Assembly: GCA_004356105.1 (NCBI GenBank)
Contig: SMYC01000069.1
Location: forward strand, 24,420-88,419
DNA from: Acidobacteriota bacterium
Lineage (GTDB): Bacteria > Acidobacteriota > Vicinamibacteria > Marinacidobacterales > SMYC01
Length of the DNA stretch: 64,000 nt
Direction: 5' to 3'
In this document: in pieces, positions 2,717 through 59,281 of the stretch
How the letters are laid out: each line of letters begins with the position of its first letter
Numbering within the stretch: the first letter of the stretch is position 1
The notes under the pieces: model-generated
Databases searched by the model: none
What the model saw: the letters and a program-made list of their open reading frames with translations, nothing else
Told to the model about the DNA's origin: nothing
Translations under genes and position numbers: made by a program

Positions 2717-4822
2717 ATGCTGAAGAGGACGAAATCTTGCCTGATCGTGCTGGCGTTTCTGGCGTTAGCTGCCGATGAAAGCCAAGCGTGGCGACCGCGA
2801 TCGCAAGTCGTCACTCCAGCCGATATGAAGATGGGGAGCCTCTTGCTGCGCTCGGATGTCGACCGGGGCTATGTCGAGGCCCCGACGGTCGAAACGAAGG
2901 TGCGGATACGCGTCACCGGGCTCGTGGGGCGCACCCGTGTGGTGCAGCTCTTTCGCAACCCGTCGGAAGAGTGGGTAGAGGGCGTCTACGTCTTTCCGCT
3001 ACCTGAACGGGCTGCCGTGGACACGATGCGCATGAAGGTTGGGGAGCGCGTCATCGAAGGTCAGATCCAGGAAAAAACCCAAGCGCGCCGGACCTATGAA
3101 AAGGCCAAACGGGAAGGGAAGAAAGCCTCTCTGCTCGAGCAAGAGAGGCCGAACATCTTCACGGTGTCGCTCGCCCATATCGGGCCTCTGGAGGAGGTTC
3201 GGATCGAGCTCGAATATCAGGAAGAAGTCCGCTACGAGGCCGGCCGCTTCGATCTTCGCTTCCCAATGGCGGTCGGCCCTCGTTACATTCCTGGAATTCC
3301 CGCGAAGACCGAAACCGTCTCCTTCACGGGAACGGGCTGGGCGCAGCCGACGCGCATCGTCACGGATGCCGACCGGATAACGCCACCGGTGCTGCCGCCG
3401 AATTCGCGTCGTGAGAACCCCGTCGAGCTCGACATCGAGCTGCATCTCGGGATGCCGCTCGTCAGCGTCGAGTCGTCCTCACACGCTGTGAAGGTGGAGC
3501 ACCAAGTCGCGTTCGGCTACCACGTGACGCTGCGGGAAGGGGCAGTGCCGGCAGATCGGGATTTCACCCTCAGCTGGGCTCCGGATGTCGGTGCCGCCCC
3601 AAGGGCCGCGCTCTTCAACGAAAGCGTCGACGGCGACAACTACGTGCTCTTGATGCTGATGCCGCCTTCGGACGGCCAGAAGACGGCGCGTCTTCCACGA
3701 GAGACGATCTTCGTCATCGACACCTCGGGCTCGATGAACGGCACTTCGATCGAGCAAGCGCGCGGCGCCCTACTGCACGCGCTCGATAAGCTGCAGCCGG
3801 ACGACACGTTCAACGTGATCCAGTTCAACTCGTCGACCTCGAAGCTCAACCATCAGCCCGTGCCCGCCACCGCCGCCGCGGTGGAGCGCGCACGCAGCTA
3901 CGTCCGAGGGCTCGCGGCAGGCGGCGGAACCGAGATGATGTCGGCTTTGACGGCAGCCTTCGGCCAACGAAGCCCGCCAGAGATCCATCGTGTCCGGCAG
4001 ATCATTTTTATAACGGATGGTAGCGTCGGGAACGAGGCGCAGCTCTTCGAGCATATCCAAGCTCATCTTGGAGAGCGGCGTCTGTTCACCGTCGGCATCG
4101 GCTCGGCGCCGAACGGGCACTTCATGACCCGCGCCGCGAAGTTCGGCCGTGGCACGTTCACCTATGTCGGCACCGCGGCCGAAGTGTCGATCAAGATGGA
4201 AGAGCTATTCGAAAAGATCGAGAGCCCTGTGCTGAGCCACATCGAGCTCGACTTCGAGGACCCGACGGCTGAAGTTTGGCCTCGGAACGTTCCCGATCTC
4301 TATGAGGGCGAGCCTATCGTGGTGGCGGCGAAGGTGCGTGGGGCTGCGAGCGGGCTCGACGTGCGCGGCCGGCGCGGAGAAGAGCCTTGGGGCGTCGGTT
4401 TTCAGCTGCGCGGCGGTCAAACACAATCCGGGGTCGCGAGACTCTGGGCCCGCCGCAAGATTGCCGACCTCATAGACACGATGACGGTTGCGAAAGAAGT
4501 CTCAGAGCGCGCCGCGGCGCGCACCGCCATCGTTGAGGTCGCCCTTCAACATCATCTCGTGTCACGCTTCACGAGTCTCGTGGCCGTCGACGTCACGCCC
4601 TCCGCCCCCTCCGGCACGATGGCGATGACAAAGGCCGTGCCCACGGCGCTTCCCGCCGGGTGGAGTTATCAGCATGTGGTGGGGACATTGCCTCAGGGAG
4701 CGACGGCCGCGGAGCTTCTGATGCTGCTCGGGTTTCTCGCCCTGACCGCGGGGCTTCTGATCTTTTGGAGCGGGGACGAGTCATGCAAAGAAAAGCCGTC
4801 GGTGTTCTCCTCTTCACCATAG
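2717..4822 (+). CDS. VIT and von Willebrand factor A domain protein, sortase target
   Basis: Exported surface-type protein of 701 residues. It has a signal peptide (about 1-24, cut near ESQA-W), a VIT domain (about 35-170) and a vWA domain (about 325-500) with a MIDAS motif DTSGSMNG. The C terminus has a sorting signal: LPQGAT, a hydrophobic stretch (ELLMLLGFLALTAGLLIFW) and a short polar tail. This matches the proteobacterial sortase-target family (TIGR03788-type). The ATG at 2717 is preceded at 7 nt by GGGGGAGG, a strong ribosome site, and gives a good signal peptide; earlier in-frame ATGs do not. It overlaps the sortase gene by 40 bp, which supports an enzyme-substrate pair. Confidence 0.9.
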   Translation: MLKRTKSCLIVLAFLALAADESQAWRPRSQVVTPADMKMGSLLLRSDVDRGYVEAPTVETKVRIRVTGLVGRTRVVQLFRNPSEEWVEGVYVFPLPERAAVDTMRMKVGERVIEGQIQEKTQARRTYEKAKREGKKASLLEQERPNIFTVSLAHIGPLEEVRIELEYQEEVRYEAGRFDLRFPMAVGPRYIPGIPAKTETVSFTGTGWAQPTRIVTDADRITPPVLPPNSRRENPVELDIELHLGMPLVSVESSSHAVKVEHQVAFGYHVTLREGAVPADRDFTLSWAPDVGAAPRAALFNESVDGDNYVLLMLMPPSDGQKTARLPRETIFVIDTSGSMNGTSIEQARGALLHALDKLQPDDTFNVIQFNSSTSKLNHQPVPATAAAVERARSYVRGLAAGGGTEMMSALTAAFGQRSPPEIHRVRQIIFITDGSVGNEAQLFEHIQAHLGERRLFTVGIGSAPNGHFMTRAAKFGRGTFTYVGTAAEVSIKMEELFEKIESPVLSHIELDFEDPTAEVWPRNVPDLYEGEPIVVAAKVRGAASGLDVRGRRGEEPWGVGFQLRGGQTQSGVARLWARRKIADLIDTMTVAKEVSERAAARTAIVEVALQHHLVSRFTSLVAVDVTPSAPSGTMAMTKAVPTALPAGWSYQHVVGTLPQGATAAELLMLLGFLALTAGLLIFWSGDESCKEKPSVFSSSP

Positions 4823-5403
4823 CCCTCGCCCTCATCGGCCAAAGTGTGTGGATGCAGGCGAAGGCACGGTTGGCTCAAGTGCTACTGGCACGGGCGTGGC
4901 AGGAGCGGGTCGCAGGCGCGCCCGAGCCGAAGCCCTGGCCTTGGGCCGACACCTGGCCGGTGGCGCTCTTGCGGGCGCCCCGGCTAGGTGAGCGCCAGAT
5001 AGTCCTCGCCGGCGCGAGCGGCCGGAACATGGCCTTCGGGCCGACCCATCTCTCGAGCTCCGCCCGTCCGGGAAGCGATACGAACGTCGTCCTGAGCGGC
5101 CATCGCGATACACACTTTGCGTTTCTCGAGCACCTCGAGCTGGGCGACGAGATCGTCATCGAGACTCCGGACGAGCGCGAACATCGCTACGCCGTAACGG
5201 GCGTCGCGGTCGTGGACGAACGCGACACATGGGTCGCGGAGCCAACGGACGACAAGACGCTCACCCTAGTGACTTGCTACCCGTTCGACGCGATCGTCCC
5301 GGGCGGGCCCAAGCGCTATGTTGTTCGGGCCACCGCCTATGTTTCGTCACAACGATACCCTCTGGCCCGACCTCGTCGAGAATTGCCAGACACCTCTCCT
5401 TGA
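4783..5403 (+). CDS. class GN sortase
   Basis: Transpeptidase of 206 residues that would process the adjacent VIT/vWA protein at its C-terminal LPQGAT signal. An N-terminal membrane anchor (about 5-25) is followed by the sortase barrel. The catalytic triad is visible as His107 in SGHRDTHF, Cys165 in LVTCYPF and Arg178 in KRYVV. The start codon lies inside the end of the target gene (40-bp overlap), so translation is probably coupled. Dedicated single-target sortases of this kind are known in Gram-negative bacteria (TIGR03784-type). The transfer acceptor in the envelope cannot be inferred. Confidence 0.9.
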   Translation: MQRKAVGVLLFTIALALIGQSVWMQAKARLAQVLLARAWQERVAGAPEPKPWPWADTWPVALLRAPRLGERQIVLAGASGRNMAFGPTHLSSSARPGSDTNVVLSGHRDTHFAFLEHLELGDEIVIETPDEREHRYAVTGVAVVDERDTWVAEPTDDKTLTLVTCYPFDAIVPGGPKRYVVRATAYVSSQRYPLARPRRELPDTSP

Positions 5404-5466
5404 ACTGAGCCGCTCCGATGGTCTTTGCAGTCATAGCACCAATCTATCATAAGTCATACTATATGG

Positions 5467-15828: not shown

Positions 15829-17165
15829 GCGGAGCCGAGACTCTCGTTTCCGTTCGTGACCGCCTCGAGCGCCGGGAGTTGAGCTCTGAAGAGCTCGTTC
15901 GCGCCCAAATCGACCGGGCCGAGAAGATTGATGCCCTGAACGCGTTCATTACGCTTCTCCCCGAACGCGCGATCGAGGCAGCTCGCCGGTCCGATGAAGA
16001 GCGAGCCCGCGGTGAGCTTCGCGGGCCGCTTCACGGCATCCCAATCACCGTTAAGGATTTGGTTCATTCGAGAGGCGTCCGCACCACCTCGGGCTCGAAA
16101 ATCTTTGCCGATCTTGTTCCCGAGGCGGACGCGCCCTGTCTTCGGTCGCTGCTCGACGCCGGCGCCGTGTTGATGGGGAAAACCAACTTGCACGAGCTTG
16201 CCTACGGAGTTACGAACGTGAATCCCCACTATGGAGCCGCGCGGAACCCGTGGGACACCGAGCGGGTAAGCGGTGGCTCGAGCGGCGGCTCGGCGGCGTC
16301 CTTGGCCGCGGGCGTCGGATTCGGCTCGATAGGCACAGATACTGGAGGTTCGATCCGTATTCCGTCGTCACTCTGCGGCACGGTCGGACTCAAACCTACC
16401 TACGGGCAGGTGAGTCGTGAGGGGGTCACCCCGCTTTCGTGGAGCCTCGACCACGTCGGGCCGATGGCGCGCACCGTCGACGACGTGGCTCTACTCTACG
16501 AAGTGCTTACGGGGGTCGCTGCGAGCTCAGACGCGCCCGGGCCGCTCGCGCTCGGGATCCACGAGCGCTACTTTTTCGACAACCTAGCCCCGGACGTCGA
16601 AGCTTCCGTGCGCACCGCCATTACGGAGCTCGAGCGCCTAGGGATGAAGCTCGTCGAAGTGGATATACCGGAGATCGAGCTCCAGACTACGTGTCGAAAC
16701 ACGATCGCGTTCTCAGAGGCGTCGTCCTTCCACGAAGACAACGTGCTCGCGCGTCCCGAGGATTATGGTGCGGACACTCTCGAGCTCTTGCGGCTCGGCC
16801 TTCTGATCCCTGCGACGGACTACCTTGCCGCGACGCGTGCGCGGCGCCCTATCGTGCGCGCTTTCCGGAAAGCCTTTCAGAAGATCGACATGCTCGTGAC
16901 GCCAGCGACCGTCGCGGCAGCGCCGCGCATCGGCGACAAAACGCTCGATAACGGCGAAGAGCTTCGCAGCGGTCTGCTGCGTCTTGCGAGTCCCTTCAAC
17001 ACAACGGGCTTTCCCGCGGTGTCGCTGCCCTGTGGTTTCACGGAGGATGGTCGCCCGATCGGTCTTCAGCTTGCGGCAGCGCCGAACGATGAGAAGCGGC
17101 TTCTCGAGCTCGCGCGCGCCTACGAACAGAGTCAAGACTGGTCGCGGCGCGCGCCAGTGATATAG
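15825..17165 (+). CDS. amidase signature family hydrolase
   Basis: A 446-residue amidase related to GatA. The Ser-cisSer-Lys catalytic set is visible: Lys in GIPITVKDL, the cis-Ser in GGSSGGSAAS and the nucleophile region GTDTGGSIRIPSSLCG. Length and the C-terminal FNTTGFPAVSLPCG motif fit the family. GTG start overlaps the preceding small gene. GatB and GatC are not nearby, so a free-standing amide hydrolase is more likely than the tRNA amidotransferase subunit, but this is not certain. fabI follows after 19 bp. Confidence 0.88.
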   Translation: MSGAETLVSVRDRLERRELSSEELVRAQIDRAEKIDALNAFITLLPERAIEAARRSDEERARGELRGPLHGIPITVKDLVHSRGVRTTSGSKIFADLVPEADAPCLRSLLDAGAVLMGKTNLHELAYGVTNVNPHYGAARNPWDTERVSGGSSGGSAASLAAGVGFGSIGTDTGGSIRIPSSLCGTVGLKPTYGQVSREGVTPLSWSLDHVGPMARTVDDVALLYEVLTGVAASSDAPGPLALGIHERYFFDNLAPDVEASVRTAITELERLGMKLVEVDIPEIELQTTCRNTIAFSEASSFHEDNVLARPEDYGADTLELLRLGLLIPATDYLAATRARRPIVRAFRKAFQKIDMLVTPATVAAAPRIGDKTLDNGEELRSGLLRLASPFNTTGFPAVSLPCGFTEDGRPIGLQLAAAPNDEKRLLELARAYEQSQDWSRRAPVI

Positions 17166-46320: not shown

Positions 46321-47290
46321 CCGATCCCTCGTCTTCCGAATCGGCGGAGCGCGAGATAGCGTCGCGCATCTTGGTGTCGGAGACGACATTCTTCATGTTG
46401 TAGTAGTCCATGACCCCGAGATTGCCGTCGCGAAAAGCTTGCGCCATCGCGAGTGGCACTTCCGCTTCGGCCTCGACAACTTTGGCGCGCATCTCGTGGA
46501 CGCGCGCTTTCATCTCTTGCTCCTGCGCGACCGCCATCGCGCGGCGGCCCTCCGCCTTGGCTTGCGCGATCTGCTTGTCGGCTTCGGCCTGTTCGGTCTG
46601 GAGCTTGGCGCCGATATTGGCTCCGACGTCGACATCGGCGATGTCGATGGAGAGGATCTCGAACGCGGTTCCGGCGTCGAGACCCTTCGCCAACACGGTC
46701 TTCGAGATCGCGTCGGGGTTCTCGAGCACCGATTTGTGGCTATCCGACGAGCCGATGGTCGAGACGATGCCCTCCCCGACGCGTGCGATGATGGTCTCTT
46801 CACCGGCGCCGCCGACGAGGCGATCGATGTCGGCGCGCACGGTGACGCGGCTCAAAGCGGTGAGCTGAATGCCGTCTTTCGCAACGGCGGCGACTTTGGG
46901 CGTCGTGATGACTTTCGGGTTGACGCTCATCTGAACGGCTTCGAGCACGTCGCGTCCCGCGAGATCGATCGCGGTGGCTTGCGTGAACGAGAGCTTGATG
47001 TTGGCTTTGTCGGCGGAAATAAGCGCGTTCACGACGCGCGCGACATTTCCGCCCGCAAGGAAGTGCGCTTCGAGCTCATCCACGGTTACGTTGAGGCCCG
47101 CTTTGACGGCGCTGATGCGCGGTTTGACGATCATGGATGGAGGCACGCGGCGGAGCCGCATCGCGATGAGCGTAAAGATGCTGACCGACGCGCCGGAAGA
47201 AAAGGCCGCAATCCACAGCCCGAGCGGCACGAAGTAAGAAAGTATCGCCAGGCCGACGAGAACCAACAGAGCAAGGGCAGAGAGTCCCAT
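46304..47290 (-). CDS. floA: flotillin-like protein FloA
   Basis: A 328-residue scaffold of membrane microdomains. Two N-terminal hydrophobic segments (about 4-22 and 25-45) are followed by a PHB/SPFH domain ([52 protein letters not shown] region) and a coiled region rich in Glu/Ala/Gln ([20 protein letters not shown]). The order with two NfeD-type genes upstream is the classical arrangement. Confidence 0.92.
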
Positions 47291-47309
47291 GAACTAAACC
47301 TCCTTCTAA

Positions 47310-47792
47310 TTAATCTTCGTTTTCCGTGGCAGCCGCTTCGACCACGACGCGGGAGCCTCGGACTTCGGTAACGACAACACGCGTCTGCGTGTCGATGAAC
47401 TCGCCTTCGGTGACGACGCTTTGGCGGAGCTCGCCAAAGCGGGCTAAGCCAGCCGGTCTCAGATCGGATTCCGTGACACCGAGCTCTCCGGGCTCGAGCG
47501 CTGTCTCCGCCGCTTTGGCGGTCGCGAGCGTCGACGAGTGTACGACATTTCGGCCGAAGCGTGTTTTCGGAAGCCACCACATCGCGGCCGTGATGGAGCC
47601 GAGTACGAGCACGATGGTGAACGTTCCCAACGCGGGGCCGAACTCCTGATAGGCGAGATAGCAACCTGCCCCGAGGCTGAGAAGCCCGGCAATCCCCGGG
47701 ACCCCGAAGCCGGGGATGACGAACGCCTCGACCGCCAGCAAGAGATAGCCCGCGACGAGAAGTGCTACGACGGTCAGGGTCGGCTCGCTCAA
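47310..47792 (-). CDS. NfeD-like protein, short form
   Basis: A 160-residue protein with three or four membrane helices (about 5-30, 30-50, 55-75) including the VIPGFGVPGIAGLLSL motif, and a C-terminal OB-fold NfeD domain (GELGVTESDLRPAGLARFGE, VVTEGEFIDTQTRVVVTEVRG). A TTG start at 47792 overlaps the stop of the larger NfeD gene (TTGA). The upstream ATG in frame extends into that gene and is less likely. It is the usual partner of flotillins. Confidence 0.82.
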   Translation of the reverse strand: MSEPTLTVVALLVAGYLLLAVEAFVIPGFGVPGIAGLLSLGAGCYLAYQEFGPALGTFTIVLVLGSITAAMWWLPKTRFGRNVVHSSTLATAKAAETALEPGELGVTESDLRPAGLARFGELRQSVVTEGEFIDTQTRVVVTEVRGSRVVVEAAATENED

Positions 47793-49171
47793 GTGTCCTC
47801 GCGCACGATAGCATTTCCGGAACGCCAAGCGACGATCGTCACTCGCGCGCCGATGCCGATGAAATCACCTTCGGAGACGGCGTCGATGCGCGCGCCGTCG
47901 ATCTTGACCTTGCCCGCGGGGCGCAAGTCCGTAATGGCTTCGCCCGCGGTTCCGAGCGGAAAGCTTTCTTTCTCGCCTTCGTCATGCGAGCTGAACCCGT
48001 CTTCGGCTTTGAGCGTTTCGCTCAACACCAAGCGACGCGCGGTACGCGACGATGGCAGGAATCGCAGCAGGAGAACGCCGGCGACTCCCGCGCCGACGAT
48101 TGCGGTCGACACCGTGAAGAGCGCTTCGTTGAGAAATCCCAGATCCCAAGATACGCGGAGATCGAGTGCGAGAAGCGACATGACGACGCCGGCGAACATC
48201 AATGCCGCCCCGCTGACGCCGGCAATGCCGAAGCCGGGGATGACGAGAAGCTCGATGAGTACGAGCACGCCGCCGAGCGCGAAGAGAAGAAGCTCCTCCC
48301 AGCCCGCGAGCTGCGCGACATGGTGGCCGAAGAAAAACGTGGCGAGCGACAAAACGCCAAGAGCGCCGGGAAGCCCGAACCCGGGATGCTGGATCTCGAC
48401 ATAGATCCCGAGCATTCCGAGCATGAGCAAGATGGAGGTCACCTGGGGGTCCGAGACGACCCGGGCTAGCGACTCGGCCCATGAGAGCGAGCGATCGAGA
48501 ACGGTTGCGCCCGACAAGCCCAAAACTTCGAGCACTTCGTCCACCGTGGCAGCTTCGTGGTCGGCGATCTCGAGTGCTAACGCCTCTACGGTGCTGAGCG
48601 TGAGCACTTTGCCTTTCTCGACGACCCCCTCGATCTCGATCTCACGGTCCACCATGGCCTCGGCGATGTCGCCGCGACGCCCGCGCGTCTCCGCGGTGGT
48701 GCGCATCTCGGTACGCATGTAGGACATCATTTTTTCATCGACCGCGGTTGGCTCTTCCGATCCGCCTCCCGCGTAAATAGGTGTCGCGGCGCCTATGGAG
48801 CCGCCGGGAGCGATGACGATGTCTTCGCAAGCAAGAGATATGAGAGCGCCCGCCGAGATGGCGCGCGGGTGGATGAACGCAACAGTGCGCACGGGCGATT
48901 CGAGAAGCACGTCGCGGATGAGCACCGCCGCGTCCACGCGCCCACCGAAAGTGTCGATGTCGAGGAGCACGACTGAGCCTTCGATCGCCGAGGCCTCCTC
49001 GACGACGCGCGCAACGAACGGTGCGAGCCCGTGATCGATCGTGCCTTCGATGGGGACCCGAAACACCGTCGGCGTTTCATCGCTTTGGACACCGAGAGCA
49101 CGGCCGAGCAAAGCTGTGAGAACGAGAAGCAGCCAAGCAGCTTTGATGTGCGATCGAGGTTTCTTTGTCAC
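47789..49171 (-). CDS. NfeD protease-type protein, long form (ClpP-fold plus NfeD)
   Basis: About 460 residues. A signal peptide or anchor (about 8-28) is followed by a ClpP-like serine protease domain, with VVLLDIDTFGGRVDAA, the Ser-containing AISAGALISLACEDIV and an ATPIYAGG-type region. Then come four or more membrane helices (HPGFGLPGALG, VIPGFGIAGVSG) and a C-terminal NfeD OB domain. The catalytic Ser is in ISAGAL. A GTG start at 49171 with AAGGA 5 nt before it is preferred over upstream ATGs, which lack a leader-like sequence. Confidence 0.87.
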   Translation of the reverse strand: MTKKPRSHIKAAWLLLVLTALLGRALGVQSDETPTVFRVPIEGTIDHGLAPFVARVVEEASAIEGSVVLLDIDTFGGRVDAAVLIRDVLLESPVRTVAFIHPRAISAGALISLACEDIVIAPGGSIGAATPIYAGGGSEEPTAVDEKMMSYMRTEMRTTAETRGRRGDIAEAMVDREIEIEGVVEKGKVLTLSTVEALALEIADHEAATVDEVLEVLGLSGATVLDRSLSWAESLARVVSDPQVTSILLMLGMLGIYVEIQHPGFGLPGALGVLSLATFFFGHHVAQLAGWEELLLFALGGVLVLIELLVIPGFGIAGVSGAALMFAGVVMSLLALDLRVSWDLGFLNEALFTVSTAIVGAGVAGVLLLRFLPSSRTARRLVLSETLKAEDGFSSHDEGEKESFPLGTAGEAITDLRPAGKVKIDGARIDAVSEGDFIGIGARVTIVAWRSGNAIVREDT

Positions 49172-49563
49172 GTCATCCTTCGGATGGAGCCCAGCGCTGT
49201 CGTTGTGGTGGTTCTGAAATCGGCTGTCCACATTGTATAACAGCGTCCGAGCGGTGGGGAAAGGCGGCAGGGGTGTTTGCCTTGACTTGACGGGTAGACC
49301 GGCCCAATGTCGCTGTTTTCTTTGGTGCGCACCGCGCTGTCTTGCCGTTGTGTGCGTTTCGTCGGCGCTCGGTCGGCCTATTTCCGAATATGCCCCGCAA
49401 TCGCTCGCCACGCTCGCCTACGACGCTTTGGCCGAAGAGATCGAGACGGGCATCGCGAAGCGCCGATTGAAGTTTCGGCCCAGCGACCTCCCTCACGCCG
49501 CGTCCTACGGTTCGTCGCTCCCCCGCTCCGATGAGATGCGCTCCGCCATCGGGCGTCGAGTGA
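49172..49563. other. region without recognisable genes
   Basis: About 390 bp between the divergent NfeD and PadR genes. Open frames exist on both strands but none has family similarity. It presumably holds the promoters of both operons, but I see no clear -35/-10 pair for either. Confidence 0.4.
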
Positions 49564-49618
49564 AAATACCTCTCGGCACGCTATATCGCGCTATGATACA
49601 TCTGATTGAGAGGTATTT
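49564..49618. promoter_or_regulatory. perfect 11-bp inverted repeat before padR, operator candidate
   Basis: AAATACCTCTC at 49564-49574 and GAGAGGTATTT at 49608-49618 are perfect inverted repeats separated by 33 bp. The enclosed sequence contains a TATGAT -10-like element. The right arm includes the GAGAGG ribosome site 7 nt before the padR start codon. PadR dimers typically bind dyads over their own promoters, so autorepression is likely. Confidence 0.6.
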
Positions 49619-49620
49619 CG

Positions 49621-49938
49621 ATGTCGCTGAGCTTGCCCATGCTCCAAATCCTGCTATCCCTTGTCGACGAAGACCGTCATGGCTACGGAATCTTACTCGA
49701 GATCGAGAGCCGTACTGGTGAGACGCGCCTCGGAACGGGGACGCTCTACACGGCGCTCAAGCGCTTGCTCGGAAAAGGGCTCATCGAAGAAGCTCTCGAC
49801 CGGCCGGTCACGGAGCTCGACGATCCTCGACGCCGCTACTATCGGATGACCGCCGCGGGTCGCGAAGCAGCCGAGCACGAAGCCGCGCGGCTAGCACGTG
49901 TTGTCGGCATGGCGCGCGAGAAAGAGCTCTTGTCATGA
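49621..49938 (+). CDS. PadR-family transcriptional regulator
   Basis: A 105-residue winged-helix repressor. The PadR core is present: MLQILLSLVDEDRHGYGILLE, the recognition region TGTLYTALKRLLGKGLIEE, and the wing RRRYYRMTAAGREAAEHEA. The ATG at 49621 is chosen because GAGAGG lies 7 nt upstream. The stop overlaps the start of the ADOP permease gene (ATGA). This PadR-ADOP pairing is typical of Acidobacteriota. Confidence 0.9.
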   Translation: MSLSLPMLQILLSLVDEDRHGYGILLEIESRTGETRLGTGTLYTALKRLLGKGLIEEALDRPVTELDDPRRRYYRMTAAGREAAEHEAARLARVVGMAREKELLS

Positions 49939-52603
49939 AATGCCTGGCGCGTGCGTGCTACCGGCTGTGCCTTCTTGTCTACCCGGAGGATTTCAGGCGG
50001 CAGTTCGAGAGCTCGATGGTCGCGACTTTCGACGAGCTCGTCCGAAGCCGCGGGACCATCAGCGTCCTATCGCGCGAAGTGCTCGACGTGCTCGTGCAAG
50101 GTTTGCGCGAGCGGGCCGCCCGCGGCCGCCGAAGCCGTCCCAACAAAACAGCGTCCACCGCCGAGCTATGGCTCAAAGACCTTCGCTATGCGGCGAGGAC
50201 GCTCGTAAGAAGCCCGTCTTTCGCTCTCGTTGTCGTTGTCTCGCTCGCGCTCGGCATCGGCGCCAACACCGCGATCTTCACTCTCGTCAACGCCATGCTC
50301 TTGAAGCCGATGCCCGTCAAAGCGCCCGAAGAGCTCGTCGCGGTCTATGCGATGCGGCCCACCCATCGTTTCCCGAGCAACTTCAGCTACCAGAACTATC
50401 TCGACCTTCGCGAGGAAAAGAAGATCTTCAGAGACCTCGTCGGGTTCTACGGCTCTCCCGTGAGCTTGCACGCTTCGAGCGAGCCCGAGCTCGTTTGGAG
50501 CGAGTTGGTCACCGAGAACTACTTCGAGGGCCTGGGCGTTTCGGCGGCATCGGGGCGGCTCTTCGAAAGCACGGACGTCGAGGCGCCCGTCGTGGTGTTG
50601 AGCTACGAGTTTTGGAGGCGACGTTTTCTCGGCGCCGTGGATGTCGTGGGCCGCGTGGTGCGCTTGAACGGTCATGCCTTCACTGTCCTAGGCGTCGCGG
50701 CGCCCGGCTTTACCGGAGCCAAGATGCTCGGCTTCAATCCCGACTTGTGGGTGCCCCTCACGTGGCATCGGCAGATTCATCCCGGCGATGATGGGCTTCT
50801 CGAGAGGCGCCATGGAGGTTGGCTGAACGTGCGCGGCCGCTTGGCGCCAGGCGTCACGCTCGCCGAGGCCCAAGCAGCGCTTGGAACCATCGCCGCGCGC
50901 CTCGAAGCTGCGTACCCCGAAGCGAACAAGGACTGGCAGCTCCACGTTTACAAATCCCCGCGCAAGACCGAGCCGTTTCTCGAGGTCATGACGGGCGGTG
51001 CTATTCCTGTTGCGGCGGGTGCGCTTCTCGCGATCGTTCTGATCGTCCTTCTCGTCGCTTGCGCGAACGTCGCCAGCCTGCAGCTCGCGCGCTCGATGGG
51101 GCGCGAGAAAGAAATGGCGCTGCGAATCTCGCTGGGCGCGTCGAGGCGACAGATCCTCCGCCAGCTCTTGCTCGAAAGCCTGTTGCTGTGCACTGCGGCG
51201 GGCTTATTAGGCCTATGGCTCGGCGGCCGGCTCTTGAACCTGGCTCTGCGGATGAACCCCGTGCTCGACTTCTCTGTGGATTTCGGCGCGACGACGGTTG
51301 CTGACGCGCGGGTCCTCGGCTTTACGCTGGTTGTCTCTGTTTTGGCCGGGCTCGTGTCGGGACTCTTGCCGGCTGCAAGAGCGTCGCGCCGTGACGTAGC
51401 GGCGACGCTTGCGGAGCGTGGCTCGAGCGGTCGCGGCGCCGGGCGGCGCTTCATCGTGATCCCTCAGCTTGCATTGTCGCTCGTGGCCCTCGTCGTCGCG
51501 GGATTGCTCATCCGGAGCTTCGACAACATGAAGGCGGCGAGCCCAGGATTCGATACGGAGTCCATAGCGCTCGCCTCGTTCAATCTCGAGTTACAGGGTT
51601 ACGACAAAGCCGAGGCCCGCGAGCTCGGCCGCCAGTTGCTCGACCGTATGCGAGGACTTCCGGAAATCTCCGCCGCGAGCTTGGCCTTTCCGCTGCCGCT
51701 CGATGCGTACCAAGAATCTGCGGTCGTCGTGCCGATGGACGCCGCTCTCGGCCAGGAAGAAGAAGAGCTCTGGCTCTCATACAGCGCGGTTAGCGAGGAT
51801 TACTTCGAGACGATAGGAACGCCGCTCTTGGCGGGACGAGGATTTCGACGAGAAGACAGCGAGGAGCGCCCGCTCGTGGCGGTGGTCAACGAGACCATGC
51901 GCGCAAGATGTGGCCGGAAGAGAGCGCGCTCGGCGGGCAATTTCGGCTCGGCCGCGAGGGCGACGTTGTTGAAGTTGTCGGCGTAGCACGCGACGGAAAG
52001 TACATGACGCTCGGCGAAGCGCCGCAGCCCTACATGTACCTCGCGCTCTCGCAATTCCATCACACGCCGGTGACGCTGGTGATGCGCTCGGACGCCTCTT
52101 TGCCCGAGCTCGAATCGCGGCTGCGCGGCGAGCTCCGTGCTCTCGATGAGACGTTGCCTATCTTCGGCGTGAAGACCATCGAGCAGTTTCTCGAGCGCAC
52201 CCTCGCGGGCCCTCGAGCGATGGCCTACAGTGTTGCGTTCTTCGCGCTTCTCGCCATCACCCTTGCGATCGTGGGCATTTACGGGCTCATGAGCTTCACC
52301 GTTTCCCAGAAAAGTCGCGAGCTCGGCATCCGCATGGCGCTCGGCGCACAAAAACGCGACGTCGTCGCTCTCTTCGTGCGTCAGACGGCGAGCATCGTCG
52401 CGCTCGGCGTTGTCTTTGGCTTGGTCTTGGCGTGGATGTCGAGCCGTGTTTTGACGAGCTTGCTCTTCGGTGTCGGCGCAGAGGCTTTTGCGATTTTTGC
52501 GGCCGCGGCCTTACTACTCACCGTTGTCGGTTTGGCGGGCGGCTATGTGCCGGCTCGCCGAGCCGCGAAGCTCGACCCGCTCGTCGCATTGCGCCACGAC
52601 TGA
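49935..52603 (+). pseudogene. ADOP-type MacB/FtsX permease, one frameshift
   Basis: An 880-codon permease. A leader domain (MKCLARACYRLCLLVYPEDF RRQ type) and helix precede a MacB periplasmic domain, then an FtsX domain, a second periplasmic domain and a second FtsX domain. The frame breaks near 51900 in ATGCGCGCAAG: adding one G restores ETMARKMWPEE and the frame then runs 51908-52603 (GEAPQPYMYLALSQFHH, ending ALRHD). Everything else is intact, so this is either a very recent mutation or a sequence error. Confidence 0.8.
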
Positions 52604-52642
52604 GAGCACGTGTCGCGGTGGCGAGATCTTGTTGGAACGAGG

Positions 52643-52826
52643 TCATCCGTCTACGGAAATCATGAGCTGAAACTCGGGAGCTCGCTCAATCTGCTCGAGC
52701 CGTGAATCCATATCGGCATATAGCTGAATGGCTTCACGTATGATGACGCTAAGATTTCAGGGCACGGTGGGCGGCCAGTTCCTCGAGCAGCTCATTATCG
52801 TGTTCCCGGTCGTCTAGCGGGAGAAG
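52643..52826 (-). pseudogene. ribbon-helix-helix antitoxin-like remnant
   Basis: The minus strand reads NELLEELAAHRAL, then changes frame to LSVIIREAIQLYADMDSRLEQ and ends at ISVDG plus a stop. The second part has the look of a CopG/RHH dimer helix. No start codon or toxin gene is seen. The rest of 52604-52903 contains nothing else recognisable. Confidence 0.35.
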
Positions 52827-52903
52827 GTAGCGTAGTCAACACTATTCATGAATGATGTGTAACTAGCGAGCCCGACTCCCGAAGTATAGACTTTGCATGA
52901 GCC

Positions 52904-53890
52904 ATGTCGAGTGCTGAAATTCGCCGTCGTGTGAGCCTTCTGAGGCAGCTCCTTCGCTCCGGCGCTCTTGATAAGGCGGCGGGAGAAGCGGAGGACGCGA
53001 TGGCGCTATATCCGGATAGCGTCGAGCTCCTCGCCGTGTACGCCGATATTCACCGGCGCGCGGAAAAGCTCGACGAGGCGAAAGCGCTGCTCGAGCGGGC
53101 GCGCGCCATCGAGCCCATGCACCCCGCCGTCCTCGCTTCTTCCGCGGACCTCGCCTACGACCGCGGGCGGTACGAAGATGCGGCCGCCCTCTACTTGGAG
53201 CTCGTGGACCGGCGCCCGAGCAGCTATCACTACTCGCGTCTCGTGGCGGCCAAAAATCGGATCGGCGCGCACGAGGAAGCGGCTGCGATTGCGCGGCGTG
53301 CGCTCGAGCGTTTTCCCGGCGACCCGTGGAACCTCCGCGGCCTCGCCACCGCTGAGAGCAAGCTCGGACGACGGGAAGAAGCCGTTGCCGTCTACGAGGA
53401 GCTTCTGTCAGTCGAGCCCAATGACCGCTTCGCTTACAAAGAGCTCATGCGCCTCAAGACCGAGGAGAGCTCTCCCGAAGAAGCGGCGTCCGCTCTCAAA
53501 GGGCTCATGCGGAGCGGTGGTCGCAGCCGAAACCCCCACCTCAAGACCTTGGCCGCTGACCGGCTCCGCAAGGCAGGGAAGCTCGAAGACGCGGTCTCCG
53601 AGTACGAAGACGCTCTCGCTCTCGAGCCCGGAAGTCCCTATATCCTGGCCCAGCTCGGCTTCACCCAAAAGAAACTCGGTCGCGACCAAGACGCGCTCGA
53701 AAGCCTCTCCAAAGCCTTCCTGGCAAAGCCTTCCGACCCCTACGTTCGCAAGAGCCTCGAGTCTCTCTTGAAAAAGCGCTTCGAGCTCGCGCGTTTCGTC
53801 GAGCTCATCGACGAAGCGCTGACGCTGCATCCCTCGGTGAAGGCCCTCCATGGCATTCGCAAGCGCGTCGCCCGCCTCGCTGGCCTGTAA
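52904..53890 (+). CDS. TPR-repeat protein
   Basis: A 328-residue protein consisting of about eight tetratricopeptide repeats (for example AKALLERARAIEPMHPAVLA, EEAVAVYEELLSVEPNDRF, DAVSEYEDALALEPGSPYI). No signal peptide or membrane segment, so it is cytoplasmic and probably mediates protein contacts. It lies 15 bp before the ATPase-PglZ fusion gene on the same strand, and the two are likely one operon; the TPR protein may be a partner of the fusion. Confidence 0.85.
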   Translation: MSSAEIRRRVSLLRQLLRSGALDKAAGEAEDAMALYPDSVELLAVYADIHRRAEKLDEAKALLERARAIEPMHPAVLASSADLAYDRGRYEDAAALYLELVDRRPSSYHYSRLVAAKNRIGAHEEAAAIARRALERFPGDPWNLRGLATAESKLGRREEAVAVYEELLSVEPNDRFAYKELMRLKTEESSPEEAASALKGLMRSGGRSRNPHLKTLAADRLRKAGKLEDAVSEYEDALALEPGSPYILAQLGFTQKKLGRDQDALESLSKAFLAKPSDPYVRKSLESLLKKRFELARFVELIDEALTLHPSVKALHGIRKRVARLAGL

Positions 53891-53905: not shown

Positions 53906-56900
53906 ATGGCCATGGTCCGTATCGGCGAGCTCGTGGAGCTTCCACGTGTCCGCACCGTCATCCAACTCGCCGACGTCTCGGACGAGACGTTAGCCCGCGG
54001 GATCCTCGAGGACTTCGTCCTCACGGCTGATTGCGACTTCGCCTTGAGCGCGCTGCTCGACGCGATGACGCATGACGAAGGCCAGGGTTTTTTCCTTCAA
54101 GGAAACTTCGGATCGGGTAAATCCCATCTTCTCGCGCTCGTGGAGCTCCTGTTCCGACCTGACATTGACCTCAACCTTAATAAAGATAGCGGTTGGGGAA
54201 CGCTCATCCGGCAAAACCGGCGCTATGAGACGCTGCGAAAAAAGCTCTCGCCCCACGCTGGAGCAAGCGTGGTCGGCGCGGTTTCTCTCGTCGCCCACGC
54301 GGGCTCGGAAAGACTCGAAGACATCTGCATCGCGGCGCTCGAAAAGACGTTCGAAGGGCCGCTCGGTTTCGCGCCGAGCTTCACTGCGGAGACCGCGGCG
54401 GTGGGAGAAATCCGGGCCGCTCTCGAGTCGCGACATCGGGAGGCGCTCGAGAGCTTCCAGAGCCGGCGCTCTGTAACCGCCGAGCGCTTGTTCGACCCCG
54501 CCCGGCCCGATCTGCTCGACGATCTTGTGCGCGAGCTCGACCTTCCGTTCCGCGTCCGTCGTCAGCGAGCCGCGTTCTTCGATGCTCTCGAGGCACAGCT
54601 CGGAAAAGACAGCGCGCCGAAACGCGCTCTCCTCATCGTCGACGAGCTCTCGGAATTTCTGCGCTCGAAGCCCGATGCCCGCGCGTTCAACGAGGACATT
54701 CGCTTCCTCCAGTTTCTCGGCGAAGCGACCCGCCGCATGCCCTTCTTCATCGTCGCTTCGCTTCAGGACCAGATCGAGACGACGGGCGAGATCGATCAGT
54801 CGACATTCAGCAAGATCAAAGACCGCTTCCCTTCGCGACTCGCGCTGACCGGAAGCCATCTCCGCGAGATTGCAAGCACACGTCTCATCCGGCAAAAGCC
54901 AGGTGCTGAAGCGCAGATCGCAGATCTTTATCGGAAATTCCGCATCGCTTTCGAAGGCTTCGCCGTATCCGAGGCAGACTTCACGGCACTCTATCCGGTC
55001 CACCCGGCGACCGTGGATCTTCTCGACGACTTGCTGCCGCTCTTCAGTCGCCATCGGGGGGCGGTAGACTTTCTCCATTATCAGCTTGCCGGCGATCCTT
55101 CGCGACACATCGTCGGGCTCCTGGACGCCCCAGCCGAGTCTCTTCTCGGACCCGACACCATCCTCGACCATTTCCGGATTCGCATAAAAGAAACACTAGA
55201 GACCAGCCCCTACATCACCGTGGTGCTCGCTTTCTACGAGAAGGAGCTCTCGCGTCTGTTCGCCGAGCCCGAAGATCGAGAGACGGCGCTCCGTCTCGTC
55301 AAGATGCTCATCCTTTTCGCGATCTCTCCCATTCCCCGGCGCCGCACGGTCGCCGAGCTCGCCGAGATGCTGCTGAAGAGCATCACCACGCTCGAATCCG
55401 GAGCCAACTACGACCACGTTCACGATCTCCTCGAAAAGATGCACCTCGAGGGCGCCTATTTGTCCCGCTCCCCGGGCAAAGAACCCCACGAGGATGTGTA
55501 CTCCCTCGACCTTGCCGCCGACGTCCAGCTCATCATCCAGAGACGGATGGAGACTTTATTGAAGGATCCGGGCTTCACCGTCTCTCGAGCCGTGGGGAGA
55601 CTTCTCCCGTACTTCAATAGTCCCGACCTTCCGCTCGCGTCGCTGGCTAAATCGCCGATCACGGAGAGGCGCGTCCCCTGGCAAAAGACCTACCGCGAGG
55701 GAAACCTTCTGTTTTGTCGCGATGCAGACGACCCCGTGATTTCGGATGCGCATCTCGACGAGCTGGTGGAAAAACTCTGGACCACGGAGCTCGACTTCTG
55801 TGTCATCCTCATGGCTCCGGGTGGAGGGATTGAAGAAGCGGCGCTCGACCGGCTCATCGCGCGACTCGAAGAGCGCGCACCCGAGCCCTTTCTTCTCTGG
55901 GTGCCGGCGCCGCTCGAAGAAGGTGACGAGAAGCCCGGCCAACTCATCCGCCGAGCGGCGGCGCGGCTCGCGATCCGCGAGCACTTTCATCAGGAAGGCT
56001 CGGACGTGGCGAAGCGCGTGCTCGCGGCCCTCGAGCCTCTGATCCGGGAAGACCTGGAGCTCAGCGAGAGCGTTGTTCAAAAAACCTATCGAAGCGGGCG
56101 CTTCCTGGCACCGTCGGGGAGCCCTACGTTGACGCCGGCCGAGCTTCCATCGATCGGCTTCGACCGCATCGTGACACGTCTGGCGGAATTTCCTCTCACG
56201 CGACGCTTTCCCAGCCACTCCGACATCGCGCCCTCGCTCGAAGCGTCGGCGACCGACGTGGCCGCACCGATTCTGCGCGAGTTTTTCCGCGCCGGCGAGG
56301 TCGCGAGACAAAACACCTCCGAGATGCTTCGCACGATGCTCGAGTCGAGGCTGCGTGCCCTCGGACTCGTCCGCCGCACCGCGACCGGGTACCGCTTGCA
56401 ACCCGACCCCTCGGAGAGCGCGCTCGTGCGCCGCGTGCTCGAGCGCGTCGGAGAAAAGCACGTTGTTTCGGAAGTGCTGTACCAGGAGCTTCGAAAGGGC
56501 ACGTTTGGTCTCACGCGACCGTCCTTCGATCTCGTCGTGCAGGCATTGTTGTATTCGGGCCAGCTGACGGCCTACGCTTCGGGTCGAAAGCTTTCACTCG
56601 ACGCGCTCGAGACCCGCTCCGTGAGCCGCATCCAGGAGTTGGGTGCGGGCGAGATGCTTTCGCGCGACCTGCAAGCCGTGCTGGCCGGACTTCCTTTCGT
56701 GCCGCCACGGCTCCAACAGGGAGCGTTCGGCTTCGCGCAACAACGTGAGCTTTGGGACTGCGTCGTCAAATGGAAGACGGAGCTCGAGCGCAGCGTTGCC
56801 GATTTGAAGGCGGAGATCGAGCGGTCGCGCAGCTACCGCTCGGTGGCACACCTCGATCTCGACGGGCTGGCCTCGCGCATCGAGCGACTCGAATCGCTGG

Positions 56901-59281
56901 GCAAAGAGGTCAAGGTCTCCTACACGGCAAGAGAAGGACTCGAACGCTTCGCGCGCCGCGCCCGCGAAGAGCCCGACCTCACCCGGGACTTCGAGGCTTT
57001 TCAAGAACTCTCGCGCTTTTTTCGAGAGGACTGGGAGCGCTATCTCTTCGTTCATCGCTACTTGAGTGATGCGGCGATGGCGCTTCCCAGCAAGGACGAA
57101 GAGCACAAGGAGCTCGCCGCAAGCCGACTTCGCCTTCGGGAGCTTGCTTCGCGCCCCGACTTGCCCTTTTCCCCCGAGCTGACGCGGCGGCTCAACGATG
57201 AAATGCAGGCTTTCATATCCACCTACGGCGCTCTGTACGAGAGCGCACATCGCACGCAAAAATCTCGCGAGCGAGTGAAGCGCCTTCTCTCGCTCCGGGA
57301 CGAGAAGAGCTATCGCTTGCTCGGGCGTCTCGCGGCGCTCGAGCTCATCTCGGTCGACGACGATCGGGTGAAGGTGGACCGCCTTTTGGACGAAGCGCTG
57401 GCGAAAACTTGCGACAGGCTCTCCCCAGAGCTTCTGCGCGCGAAGCCCACATGCGACTGCGGCTTCGAGCTCGGAGACGTGCTCGAGCTTCCCGCACCGT
57501 CCGAAGTTCAGGCCGTCATCGATCGCGGCATCGTCCAATACTTGGAAAGACTTCGCGAGCCGACCTATCTCGAGCCGATCGAGAGCGCACTCCACGGGCT
57601 TTCGGAAGTGGGCAAAGGCTCTCTCGTGTCGAAAATCCGCAAGCTCGTGGAGCTCGACCTCGAAGCGCCCGATCTTCTCAATCGCGTCGACAAGCTTGCC
57701 GCGAGGGAGGTCATCGACGCGGTGAACGATGCGCTCACCGGCCACGCGGTTCTCGTCGAGAGAAGCCTCGAGGATCTCGCTGAGCGCATTGCTGAGAGGA
57801 GCTTTACTCGAAAGGCGCTCCTCGACATCGTGGCGCGATGGATCGATGGCGACGCGGCGCTCTCAGCGGAGGACTACGTCAAAGTGGTCTCTCAAGGCAA
57901 GCTCGCGGCCGAGCCAAGCGTGCTCGCGTCTTTCGTCCGCGAGCGTTTCTCGGAGCTTTGGCCTTGGTGGGAGAAGCTTGGTGAGCGCAAAGCTTCCCGG
58001 CTCATGGTGCTGGCGTTTCGCGCCGGAGCAGAGACGCCGGTCGAAGACGTCGAGCCACGGATTGCGGAGCGTCTTCGTGACGCCTTCGAAGCGTTTACCC
58101 GCGAGGCACCCGACGAGGTGCTTTCTGTTGTCGAGCGCGTCGAGAGCGAGCTGACGGATGAAGAGCGGCGCGCGATCCTCTCACAGGATGACGCCGCCGA
58201 CGCGGAGACGCTGACTCGTCTCGCTTATGGGGAAGCGTCGTTTCGCTTCGCGGTCAGGGATCGAGCCAGAAAGCTCATCCGGATGATTCTTGCGGGCTCG
58301 CTGACGAGTGTACCGGCGGGCGCGCGTTCGTCGGATCCGGATGGCGGGGACGTTCAGCGCGAGCAGCTAGGCCTCGAGGCACTCACCCGAGCGCTCGAGT
58401 CGGGCGTGAGCTTGTACGGCGGGATGCGCTATATGGACGGGCTAGAAAAGTCTCCCGATACCCCGGAGGGCTGGGAGACGCTCTACCGTGAGCACATGGC
58501 ACCGATGCCCGCGGCGCTCTGCCATCTGAAAGAATCACTCGACGAGCTCAAGCTCGCGGAGGAGATAGACCTGAAAGGCGCCACGCAAAACGCACGACGC
58601 CTTCTCGAAGCGCGGGCGTCCGACTTCGAGACGTTCTTTCTCGCGCAGGCCCCCGCCGAGGGCCCGAGGACACTCCGCTACCTCTTCGAAGAGCTCGCCG
58701 AAAAATACCGAACAAAGCTCGACCCAGCCAGCGAGAAATTCGTGTTCCTCGACGGCATGCGCTGGGACGTGTGGAGTCATTTACGAGTGACGCTCCTGCC
58801 TCGACTCCGGGCCGTGTACCGCGTCGTCGACGAAATTCCGCTCTGGTCCATCCATCCCACGACGACCCAAGCTCAGCTCGAGGCCGCCGGCATCGGCGTT
58901 CCCCAGCTCGAGCTCGCCGCGGAGTCCCGGCCGAGCTACGGCCGGGAGGCGGAGACTTCGGTACTGCCTGGTTTCCAGCGTCTCTCAGGACCGGGCGGTG
59001 AGCCGATCGAGCGACTGAACCTAGTGGACGACAAGATCCACGAGTCGTCGATGCCCCTATGCGACGTACTCCGCGAGATCGAGCTACACGCGCGAAGAAC
59101 GCTCGGGGCATTGCTCGAAGAGGCGCCGCGCCGAACGCTCGTGTTTCTCTTCTCCGACCACGGCTTTCGCGAAGATCCCCACTGGAGCGAGACCTCCCGA
59201 CATCGAAAGCCGCGCTACCGGCACGGTGGCGCGAGCCCATGGGAGGTCATCACACCGCTCGTGATCTTGTCTCGAAGCTGA
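53906..59281 (+). CDS. BrxC/PglY-like ATPase fused to PglZ-like domain
   Basis: A 1791-residue protein. An N-terminal P-loop ATPase of the DUF6079/BrxC/PglY kind has Walker A QGNFGSGKSHLL (about 65-76), Walker B ALLIVDELSEFL (241-252), a sensor strand FIVASLQD (281-288) and Arg residues in RFPSRLAL. A long alpha-helical middle follows, with a coiled coil (about 950-1010) and a CDCG motif near 1181. The C terminus (about 1600-1790) is PglZ-like: FLDGMRWDVW and LVFLFSDHGF, then RHGGASPWEVITPLVIL. In BREX these functions are separate genes. No brxX/pglX methylase, brxL, brxA or brxB lies nearby. Confidence 0.8.
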   Translation: MAMVRIGELVELPRVRTVIQLADVSDETLARGILEDFVLTADCDFALSALLDAMTHDEGQGFFLQGNFGSGKSHLLALVELLFRPDIDLNLNKDSGWGTLIRQNRRYETLRKKLSPHAGASVVGAVSLVAHAGSERLEDICIAALEKTFEGPLGFAPSFTAETAAVGEIRAALESRHREALESFQSRRSVTAERLFDPARPDLLDDLVRELDLPFRVRRQRAAFFDALEAQLGKDSAPKRALLIVDELSEFLRSKPDARAFNEDIRFLQFLGEATRRMPFFIVASLQDQIETTGEIDQSTFSKIKDRFPSRLALTGSHLREIASTRLIRQKPGAEAQIADLYRKFRIAFEGFAVSEADFTALYPVHPATVDLLDDLLPLFSRHRGAVDFLHYQLAGDPSRHIVGLLDAPAESLLGPDTILDHFRIRIKETLETSPYITVVLAFYEKELSRLFAEPEDRETALRLVKMLILFAISPIPRRRTVAELAEMLLKSITTLESGANYDHVHDLLEKMHLEGAYLSRSPGKEPHEDVYSLDLAADVQLIIQRRMETLLKDPGFTVSRAVGRLLPYFNSPDLPLASLAKSPITERRVPWQKTYREGNLLFCRDADDPVISDAHLDELVEKLWTTELDFCVILMAPGGGIEEAALDRLIARLEERAPEPFLLWVPAPLEEGDEKPGQLIRRAAARLAIREHFHQEGSDVAKRVLAALEPLIREDLELSESVVQKTYRSGRFLAPSGSPTLTPAELPSIGFDRIVTRLAEFPLTRRFPSHSDIAPSLEASATDVAAPILREFFRAGEVARQNTSEMLRTMLESRLRALGLVRRTATGYRLQPDPSESALVRRVLERVGEKHVVSEVLYQELRKGTFGLTRPSFDLVVQALLYSGQLTAYASGRKLSLDALETRSVSRIQELGAGEMLSRDLQAVLAGLPFVPPRLQQGAFGFAQQRELWDCVVKWKTELERSVADLKAEIERSRSYRSVAHLDLDGLASRIERLESLGKEVKVSYTAREGLERFARRAREEPDLTRDFEAFQELSRFFREDWERYLFVHRYLSDAAMALPSKDEEHKELAASRLRLRELASRPDLPFSPELTRRLNDEMQAFISTYGALYESAHRTQKSRERVKRLLSLRDEKSYRLLGRLAALELISVDDDRVKVDRLLDEALAKTCDRLSPELLRAKPTCDCGFELGDVLELPAPSEVQAVIDRGIVQYLERLREPTYLEPIESALHGLSEVGKGSLVSKIRKLVELDLEAPDLLNRVDKLAAREVIDAVNDALTGHAVLVERSLEDLAERIAERSFTRKALLDIVARWIDGDAALSAEDYVKVVSQGKLAAEPSVLASFVRERFSELWPWWEKLGERKASRLMVLAFRAGAETPVEDVEPRIAERLRDAFEAFTREAPDEVLSVVERVESELTDEERRAILSQDDAADAETLTRLAYGEASFRFAVRDRARKLIRMILAGSLTSVPAGARSSDPDGGDVQREQLGLEALTRALESGVSLYGGMRYMDGLEKSPDTPEGWETLYREHMAPMPAALCHLKESLDELKLAEEIDLKGATQNARRLLEARASDFETFFLAQAPAEGPRTLRYLFEELAEKYRTKLDPASEKFVFLDGMRWDVWSHLRVTLLPRLRAVYRVVDEIPLWSIHPTTTQAQLEAAGIGVPQLELAAESRPSYGREAETSVLPGFQRLSGPGGEPIERLNLVDDKIHESSMPLCDVLREIELHARRTLGALLEEAPRRTLVFLFSDHGFREDPHWSETSRHRKPRYRHGGASPWEVITPLVILSRS

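Follow-up and report, generated by a model that had tools for sequence, protein, structure and literature searches.

A single-chain BrxC–PglZ fusion with a TPR partner gene, a candidate methylase-free derivative of BREX

Architecture and active sites of the fusion protein

The locus lies in a 64-kb window (the whole stretch of DNA that we analysed, 64,000 nucleotides) and consists of two genes on the + strand: one for a 328-aa TPR protein (52904..53890), which ends 15 nt before the ATG of the second, and one encoding BrxC and PglZ as a single-chain fusion (53906..59281, ATG to stop, 1,791 aa). The 1791-residue frame given in the original prediction exists as such, and the parts of the protein given below are all on the + strand. 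The fusion protein is matched by Pfam DUF6079 (E 2.9e-41), PADLOC BrxC (E 5.2e-30) and, under its curated cut-off, NCBIfam BrxC (E 1.8e-24), and profile matches connect it to solved BrxC (4.5e-17) and to the PglZ domains of PorX (5.4e-12). Given the E-values of the Pfam, PADLOC, solved-BrxC and PorX matches, the resemblance to BrxC and PglZ is not due to chance. Pfam, PADLOC, profile and fold comparison agree that the N-terminal half is BrxC-like, as had been predicted. PADLOC also returned SspC and mad8 for the protein, both of which we dropped as weak AAA+ cross-matches. Our protein search scored 7,991 candidates and yielded 155 relatives at E ≤ 1e-3, 120 of which are listed; the PglZ domain, detected with a profile made from the family’s own C terminus, is present in 107 of these 120.

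The BrxC-like N terminus (residues 1-536, 53906..55513) combines an AAA+ module of the ORC/Cdc6 type with a winged helix. Its Walker A (GNFGSGKSH, residues 66-74, 54101..54127) and Walker B (LLIVDELSEFL, residues 242-252, 54629..54661) motifs are covered by an alignment of 47 homologues, in all of which G66, G71, K72, S73, D246 and E247 are unchanged, in line with the initial reading of the two motifs. The middle of BrxC (residues 537-1145, 55514..57340) is mixed alpha/beta followed by long helices, an assignment based on the profile range and the secondary structure of the model; the fold comparison hardly covers these residues. Type-3 and archaeal BrxC align to the fusion-family profile up to position 1170-1260. 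H1115, C1169, C1183 and C1185 (residues 1115-1185, 57248..57460) are invariant in 47/47 homologues and likely form a metal site. The C.CG motif is found in 117 of the 120 listed homologues and in the BrxC of an archaeal locus (L099), and is absent from four Type-3 BrxC proteins; one of 48 Type-1 BrxC proteins has one, as judged by the last 500 residues. A helical linker (residues 1191-1489, 57476..58372), which from residue 1335 onward can be aligned to the helical portion of BREX PglZ, leads to the PglZ domain (residues 1490-1791, 58373..59278).

The active site of this domain is preserved throughout the family: D1616, T1654 (a serine in two cases), D1708, H1712, D1751, H1752 and H1773 are kept in 107/107 of the listed PglZ-bearing relatives. 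Three C-terminal motifs singled out at the outset prove to carry these residues, with D1616 in FLDGMRWDVW, D1751 and H1752 in FSDHGF, and H1773 in RHGG, all unchanged across the 107 homologues. In the alignment to PorX, the counterpart of T1654 is the second threonine of PTAT, and that of H1773 is the HGG histidine (T272 and H500 in a chain count that includes a five-residue tag); PorX structures mutated at that threonine are labelled null mutants or hold bound pGpG. Through PorX T272 and H500, by alignment and residue count, the two residues also match T538 and H741 of Escherichia fergusonii PglZ. As described in the available part of PMC12205998, the T538A substitution in that protein abolished oligonucleotide cleavage and reduced phage defence by about 3 logs, the strain still being active, and the effects of H741A were milder. 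From these alignments, T1654 is the predicted nucleophile and the fusion protein is predicted to be catalytically active.

While Pfam PglZ (PF08665) is listed for a number of the fusion’s relatives, it has no match in the fusion’s own genome, not even at the fusion. As this HMM is too narrow here, we used profile and fold comparison to settle the identity of the domain. In fold and profile comparison alike the C terminus matches PorX best, the PorX/PglZ fold is present together with the threonine in the nucleophile position and the metal ligands, and fold likeness to BREX PglZ reaches past the PglZ domain into its helical part. A C terminus unrelated to PglZ had been set in advance as the outcome that would count against the fusion; the profile, fold and active-site comparisons all give PglZ.

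The TPR partner and the genes around the module

The product of the upstream gene matches 24 Pfam families, mostly TPR, with TPR_19 at the top (3.9e-28). The proposal that this gene is the operon partner of the fusion generalises far past the present locus: among 36 loci, taken from named genomes and from the phylum draw, 31 have a TPR gene upstream of the fusion-family gene at a distance of no more than 400 nt (L008 and L095 being set aside for want of usable upstream DNA). In 21 of the 31 it is on the same strand, nine of these overlapping by profile estimate, and in 10 it is divergent; apart from L028, which is outside the ATPase tree, the divergent arrangements fall within one clade of that tree. 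Twenty of the 36 testable loci served to build the TPR profile, and among the 16 loci outside this training set the gene is present in 11. It is further away in L014 (795 nt) and L019 (3.9 kb), has no match in L024, L025 and L083 (3/36), and is matched in 0/49 BREX control loci. Distances between TPR proteins correlate with those between ATPases (Mantel r 0.84, p 2e-4, 28 loci, with L005, L012, L019, L030 and short duplicates left out), a correlation that fits co-evolution, shared inheritance or joint transfer alike. The TPR proteins diverge faster than the ATPase by a factor of about 1.5, a ratio low enough to give no sign of a hard arms race.

Beyond the two genes, little recurs. Flank clustering over 35 loci returned the fusion and the TPR gene as the only general members; the remaining clusters consisted of frames lying over these two, shifted or on the opposite strand, of response-regulator-type genes (five loci), of one unnamed family (five loci) and of sets found in two to four loci, such as those of near-identical Halanaerobiales loci. 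Among 160 neighbours from 27 loci, 146 were scanned with PADLOC, and 8 of the 14 that were too long for this were scanned with Pfam. At 1e-10, PADLOC gave at most two members per family among the matches listed for the 146 neighbours (the best 25 of 54 families), and the Pfam matches were to transporters, metabolic enzymes and regulators. As the neighbours are mostly ordinary genes, no defence-island signal is seen. Nor is the module found on mobile elements: in none of 72,556 plasmid records does the match cover more than 22% of the protein, none of 50,697 phage records matches it, and 14 viral contigs match its N-terminal part only, at 21-33% identity, with no full copy. The 64-kb window contains no tRNA, no tandem repeats were found around the module, and its G+C content resembles that of the surroundings. 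Promoter and terminator scans were uninformative.

In G001, a genome of the same family as the host, the left flank is shared (FloA, NfeD, PadR and ADOP permease) to the end of the permease (46341-52347), and at the module’s place (L119, about 4730-5423) stands a PIN-domain gene; the module itself has no match in the G001 genome. This contrast reflects either gain of the module in the window’s genome or its loss in G001. The flank shared with a second genome, G002, is limited to the NfeD end. The neighbouring serine/threonine-kinase gene has too many paralogues to anchor synteny; the G000 genome contains a very large set of them (60 matches to the window’s kinase at E ≤ 1e-60). Three further observations concern this region. 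The PIN-domain gene of G001 is preceded by a small frame that reads as Phd-like. The MacB/ADOP-type permease of the window (49935-52603) is broken into overlapping frames (49935-51986 and 51908-52603), while its homologue in G001 (L119 5477-8128) is a single 883-aa frame, and the split is either a frameshift or an assembly error. Finally, on the − strand of the gap before the TPR gene (52640-52840) lies a short peptide stretch, REAIQLYADMDSRLEQIE..., which may be an antitoxin remnant.

Relation to BREX and distribution of the family

The family was delineated in a genome scan keyed to N-terminal motifs, from which the best 80 of 197 relatives were taken; 38 loci carry a fusion-family ATPase of more than 200 bits once six short duplicates (L084-L089) and L036 are excluded, and a 234-aa fragment at a contig end (L031, 177 bits) falls under the cut. 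PglZ is in frame in 30 of the 38, in another frame in three (L028, L030, L095), cut by the contig end in three (L015, L020, L091) and not found in two (L010, L025).

We searched these loci for the remaining BREX genes with profiles of clusters recurring in 49 control BREX loci, namely BrxB, BrxA, PglX, PglZ and BrxL; Pfam was used to check one member per cluster (that of PglX matches the Eco57I methylase). In the controls the profiles recovered BrxB in 46, BrxA in 43, PglX in 41, PglZ in 28 and BrxL in 12 of the 49 loci. The Type-1 BrxB, BrxA, PglX and BrxL profiles matched in none of the fusion-family loci, and the control PglZ profile gave one weak match there, to a fusion itself. Profiles for Type-3 BREX were made from L036 together with three loci on plasmids and one on an archaeal plasmid, BrxA being assigned in part by its position among the genes; those for BrxF, methylase and BrxA matched in 0/38 loci, the flanks scanned reaching at most 10 kb per side and often less. 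BREX methylase, BrxA, BrxB/BrxF and BrxL are therefore undetected in the loci scanned, and the homologues do not lie in BREX clusters; their constant presence in full clusters had been named beforehand as an outcome that would speak against the prediction. The claim that neither a methylase nor BrxL lies nearby extends to the whole window, a six-frame search of which returned none of BrxA, BrxB, PglX, PglZ, BrxL, BrxF and the Type-3 methylase, helicase and BrxA at E ≤ 1e-3, and Pfam BrxB and BrxL_ATPase have no match in the genome (93% complete). Two small unnamed control clusters (from 5 and 3 control loci) match genes in L003, L012, L013, L014 and L027.

Type-3 BREX usually consists of brxF, brxC/DUF6079, a methylase, the BrxHII helicase and pglZ. 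Its BrxC fits the fusion-family profile over most of its length, far above Type-1 BrxC, its PglZ matches the fusion family too, and brxF occupies the spot directly upstream of the ATPase that the TPR gene holds here. Unlike the fusion, however, it has BrxC and PglZ as separate genes, along with a methylase and BrxF. The BrxHII helicase, of which there is none in the window, has a counterpart in just two of the 38 loci: SNF2 helicases with 39% mutual identity lie beside the module in L007 (6924-9575) and L019 (6103-8562), in the latter between the TPR gene and the fusion. Of the features of BREX, the BrxC/PglY-type AAA+ ATPase and a PglZ with intact active site are present as fusion domains; the PglX/BrxX methylase, BrxA, BrxB (or BrxF) and BrxL (Types 1 and 4) were not found in the locus. 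Because methylase, BrxA and BrxB/F are missing from this set, the system is by its features not BREX, although its parts are BREX-built.

In the ATPase tree a single clade (SH-aLRT 99) that spans phyla holds the fusion-family proteins (34 rows), with four Type-3 BREX BrxC and one archaeal BrxC as neighbours and six Type-1 BrxC outside; L036 was counted with Type-3 BREX, and L025, L028 and L030 were omitted. In an earlier AAA-only tree, two loci labelled canonical, L028 (frameshifted) and L036 (Type-3 BREX), fell among the fusions. The PglZ-only tree, which has long branches, is compatible with the fusion having arisen once, though at the cost of two changes. Scores against the fusion-family profile are 269.5 bits for the archaeal BrxC (the top-scoring unfused BrxC compared), 139-217 for Type-3 and 50-90 for 48 Type-1 proteins. 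Among BREX BrxC proteins, those of Type-3 and archaeal systems, rather than of Type-1, are closest to the ATPase half, and the fusion represents a single old clade instead of a local event. The archaeal protein is from the BREX-like locus L099, on a plasmid of Halorarius halobius, where pglZ starts 2 nt past brxC, so that this adjoining order is likely the pre-fusion one. While L099 shares the C.CG motif with the fusion, it comprises two genes, together with a methylase and a BrxA-family protein, with no TPR gene annotated.

As L010 is nested within the fusion clade, its PglZ was likely lost; it retains the TPR gene. Other PglZ-less members, of about 1,300-1,470 aa like L010 (7907-11953), are P0044 (partial in the source), P0061, P0063 and P0071-P0073, and they may be a branch with the ATPase alone, have lost PglZ secondarily or be genes cut short. 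In L022, a second C-terminal PglZ fragment (16791-17156, 64 bits) follows the fusion about 2.5 kb further downstream, perhaps through partial duplication. As some loci are without one or the other (L010 and L025 lack PglZ; L024, L025 and L083 give no TPR match), neither the TPR nor the PglZ part is strictly obligatory. Fusions with in-frame PglZ occur in at least nine phyla (Bacillota, Acidobacteriota, Pseudomonadota, Planctomycetota, Myxococcota, Thermodesulfobacteriota, Nitrospirota, Spirochaetota and Actinomycetota), names that carry a binning risk because most loci come from metagenome-assembled genomes. The distribution is patchy: in the phylum draw, 7/396 genomes, the fusion’s own included, match at 1e-20, and of 60 near relatives two match, namely its own genome and one with a weak N-terminal match.

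Possible function and its alternatives

What we observe is a fused architecture with intact ATPase and PglZ active-site residues and a conserved, co-diverging TPR partner. We lean towards reading it as a two-gene, methylase-free BREX derivative (TPR protein plus BrxC–PglZ fusion) that likely acts as an ATP-gated DNA-binding machine and would cut invading nucleic acid with the tethered PglZ. In Type-1 BREX, the BrxC AAA+ domain binds BrxB:PglZ (PMC13326643, in the part available), so that both of the halves fused here work in one complex there. In the B:C:Z complexes of Acinetobacter, Salmonella and E. fergusonii, unlike in the fusion, BrxB bridges separate chains, and the N-terminal (with the BrxB-binding segment) and C-terminal parts of Type-1 PglZ fall outside the range aligned to the fusion. 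The AAA+ part would assemble on DNA in the BrxC manner, and the covalent link would take over the BrxB bridge between BrxC and PglZ, an idea that fits the apparent absence of the BrxB-binding segment. Being coded where brxF sits in Type-3 BREX, the TPR protein may dock on the ATPase instead of BrxB/BrxF and serve as sensor or adaptor. BREX self/non-self discrimination cannot apply without a methylase, and the natural candidate for sensing or docking is the conserved TPR protein; self would carry no methylation marks, invaders would have to be told apart in their absence, and activation would come from a TPR-sensed trigger or from the state of the DNA. The output would be metal-dependent cleavage of DNA or oligonucleotides, probably directed against phage or other invading DNA.

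We give a defence role a little over one half of our confidence, and signal regulation one fifth. The ordinary neighbours, the lack of plasmid and phage copies, the modest lead of TPR over ATPase divergence and the likeness to PorX all stand against defence. The PglZ domain of the fusion resembles that of PorX, with matching nucleophile and HGG histidine, and cyclic as well as linear oligonucleotides are substrates of the PorX domain (PMC12839542, in the part available). Together with PorX being the top fold and profile match of the C terminus, the unseen defence-island signal and the lack of a methylase in the loci, this is what would be expected of a regulatory phosphodiesterase whose PglZ part hydrolyses nucleotide signals under the gating of the ATPase and TPR protein, in a housekeeping or stress pathway. 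Such a role nevertheless seems unlikely: where PorX has a response-regulator receiver domain, the fusion has the BrxC ATPase (no Pfam Response_reg match at E ≤ 1), which the PMC literature, as far as available, places in defence complexes; the patchy cross-phylum spread suits a conserved regulator poorly; and the likeness to the BREX PglZ fold continues into the helical part beyond the domain.

The lack of a methylase is in keeping with a DNA-maintenance or plasmid-exclusion machine that functions without self-marking. In a manner comparable to Wadjet, the ATPase would sense a DNA state such as topology or ends and PglZ would nick that DNA, without phage specificity; the long helical region and winged helices within the BrxC frame are suggestive of this, and we consider it less likely again than regulation. 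Were the locus a decaying, functionless BREX remnant, the failure to find methylase, BrxA, BrxB/F and BrxL in the scanned loci and window would be readily explained, but the seven active-site residues kept in every listed PglZ-bearing relative, the Walker residues kept in every aligned homologue, and the retention of a single clade with its TPR partner despite great divergence and a change of gene orientation make decay very improbable, and we disfavour it.

As described in the available part of PMC12839542, BrxC and PglZ homologues co-occur outside BREX as separate genes. BREX-Related (BR) Type-3 and BREX-Related Capture (BRC) systems pair a BrxC/DUF499-like ATPase with PglZ outside classical BREX, the separate PglZ being accompanied in BR-3 by a methylase and a helicase, and in BRC by HerA/FtsK and DUF4007 (PMC12839542, same part). 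Its BR and BRC accounts, to that extent, describe neither an ATPase–PglZ fusion nor a TPR partner, and ‘BrxC-PglZ’, ‘PglZ fusion’, ‘single polypeptide’ and ‘TPR’ do not occur in the main text as available. We found no description of the fusion or its TPR pairing in the accessible open-licence PMC literature. The pairing appears to be an undescribed variant built from BREX parts.

The mechanism of phage restriction by BREX is still unresolved, in part because some six proteins are involved and because its two arms, methylation and restriction, have components in common. A single-chain ATPase–PglZ core of natural origin, with a single partner and lacking a methylase, would allow the restriction arm to be studied alone, in a simplified set of one large protein and one TPR protein with two active sites open to knock-out. 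More tentatively, and short of an even chance, the locus may be an immune system of two genes in which ATPase and nuclease are fused, self-marking by methylation has been dropped and recognition has passed to a TPR sensor, that is, BREX restriction without DNA modification. If the system is defensive, PglZ cleavage would be controllable without methylation, which raises the question of what the TPR protein senses; if it is not, the family would show BREX parts put to a second use, in regulation.
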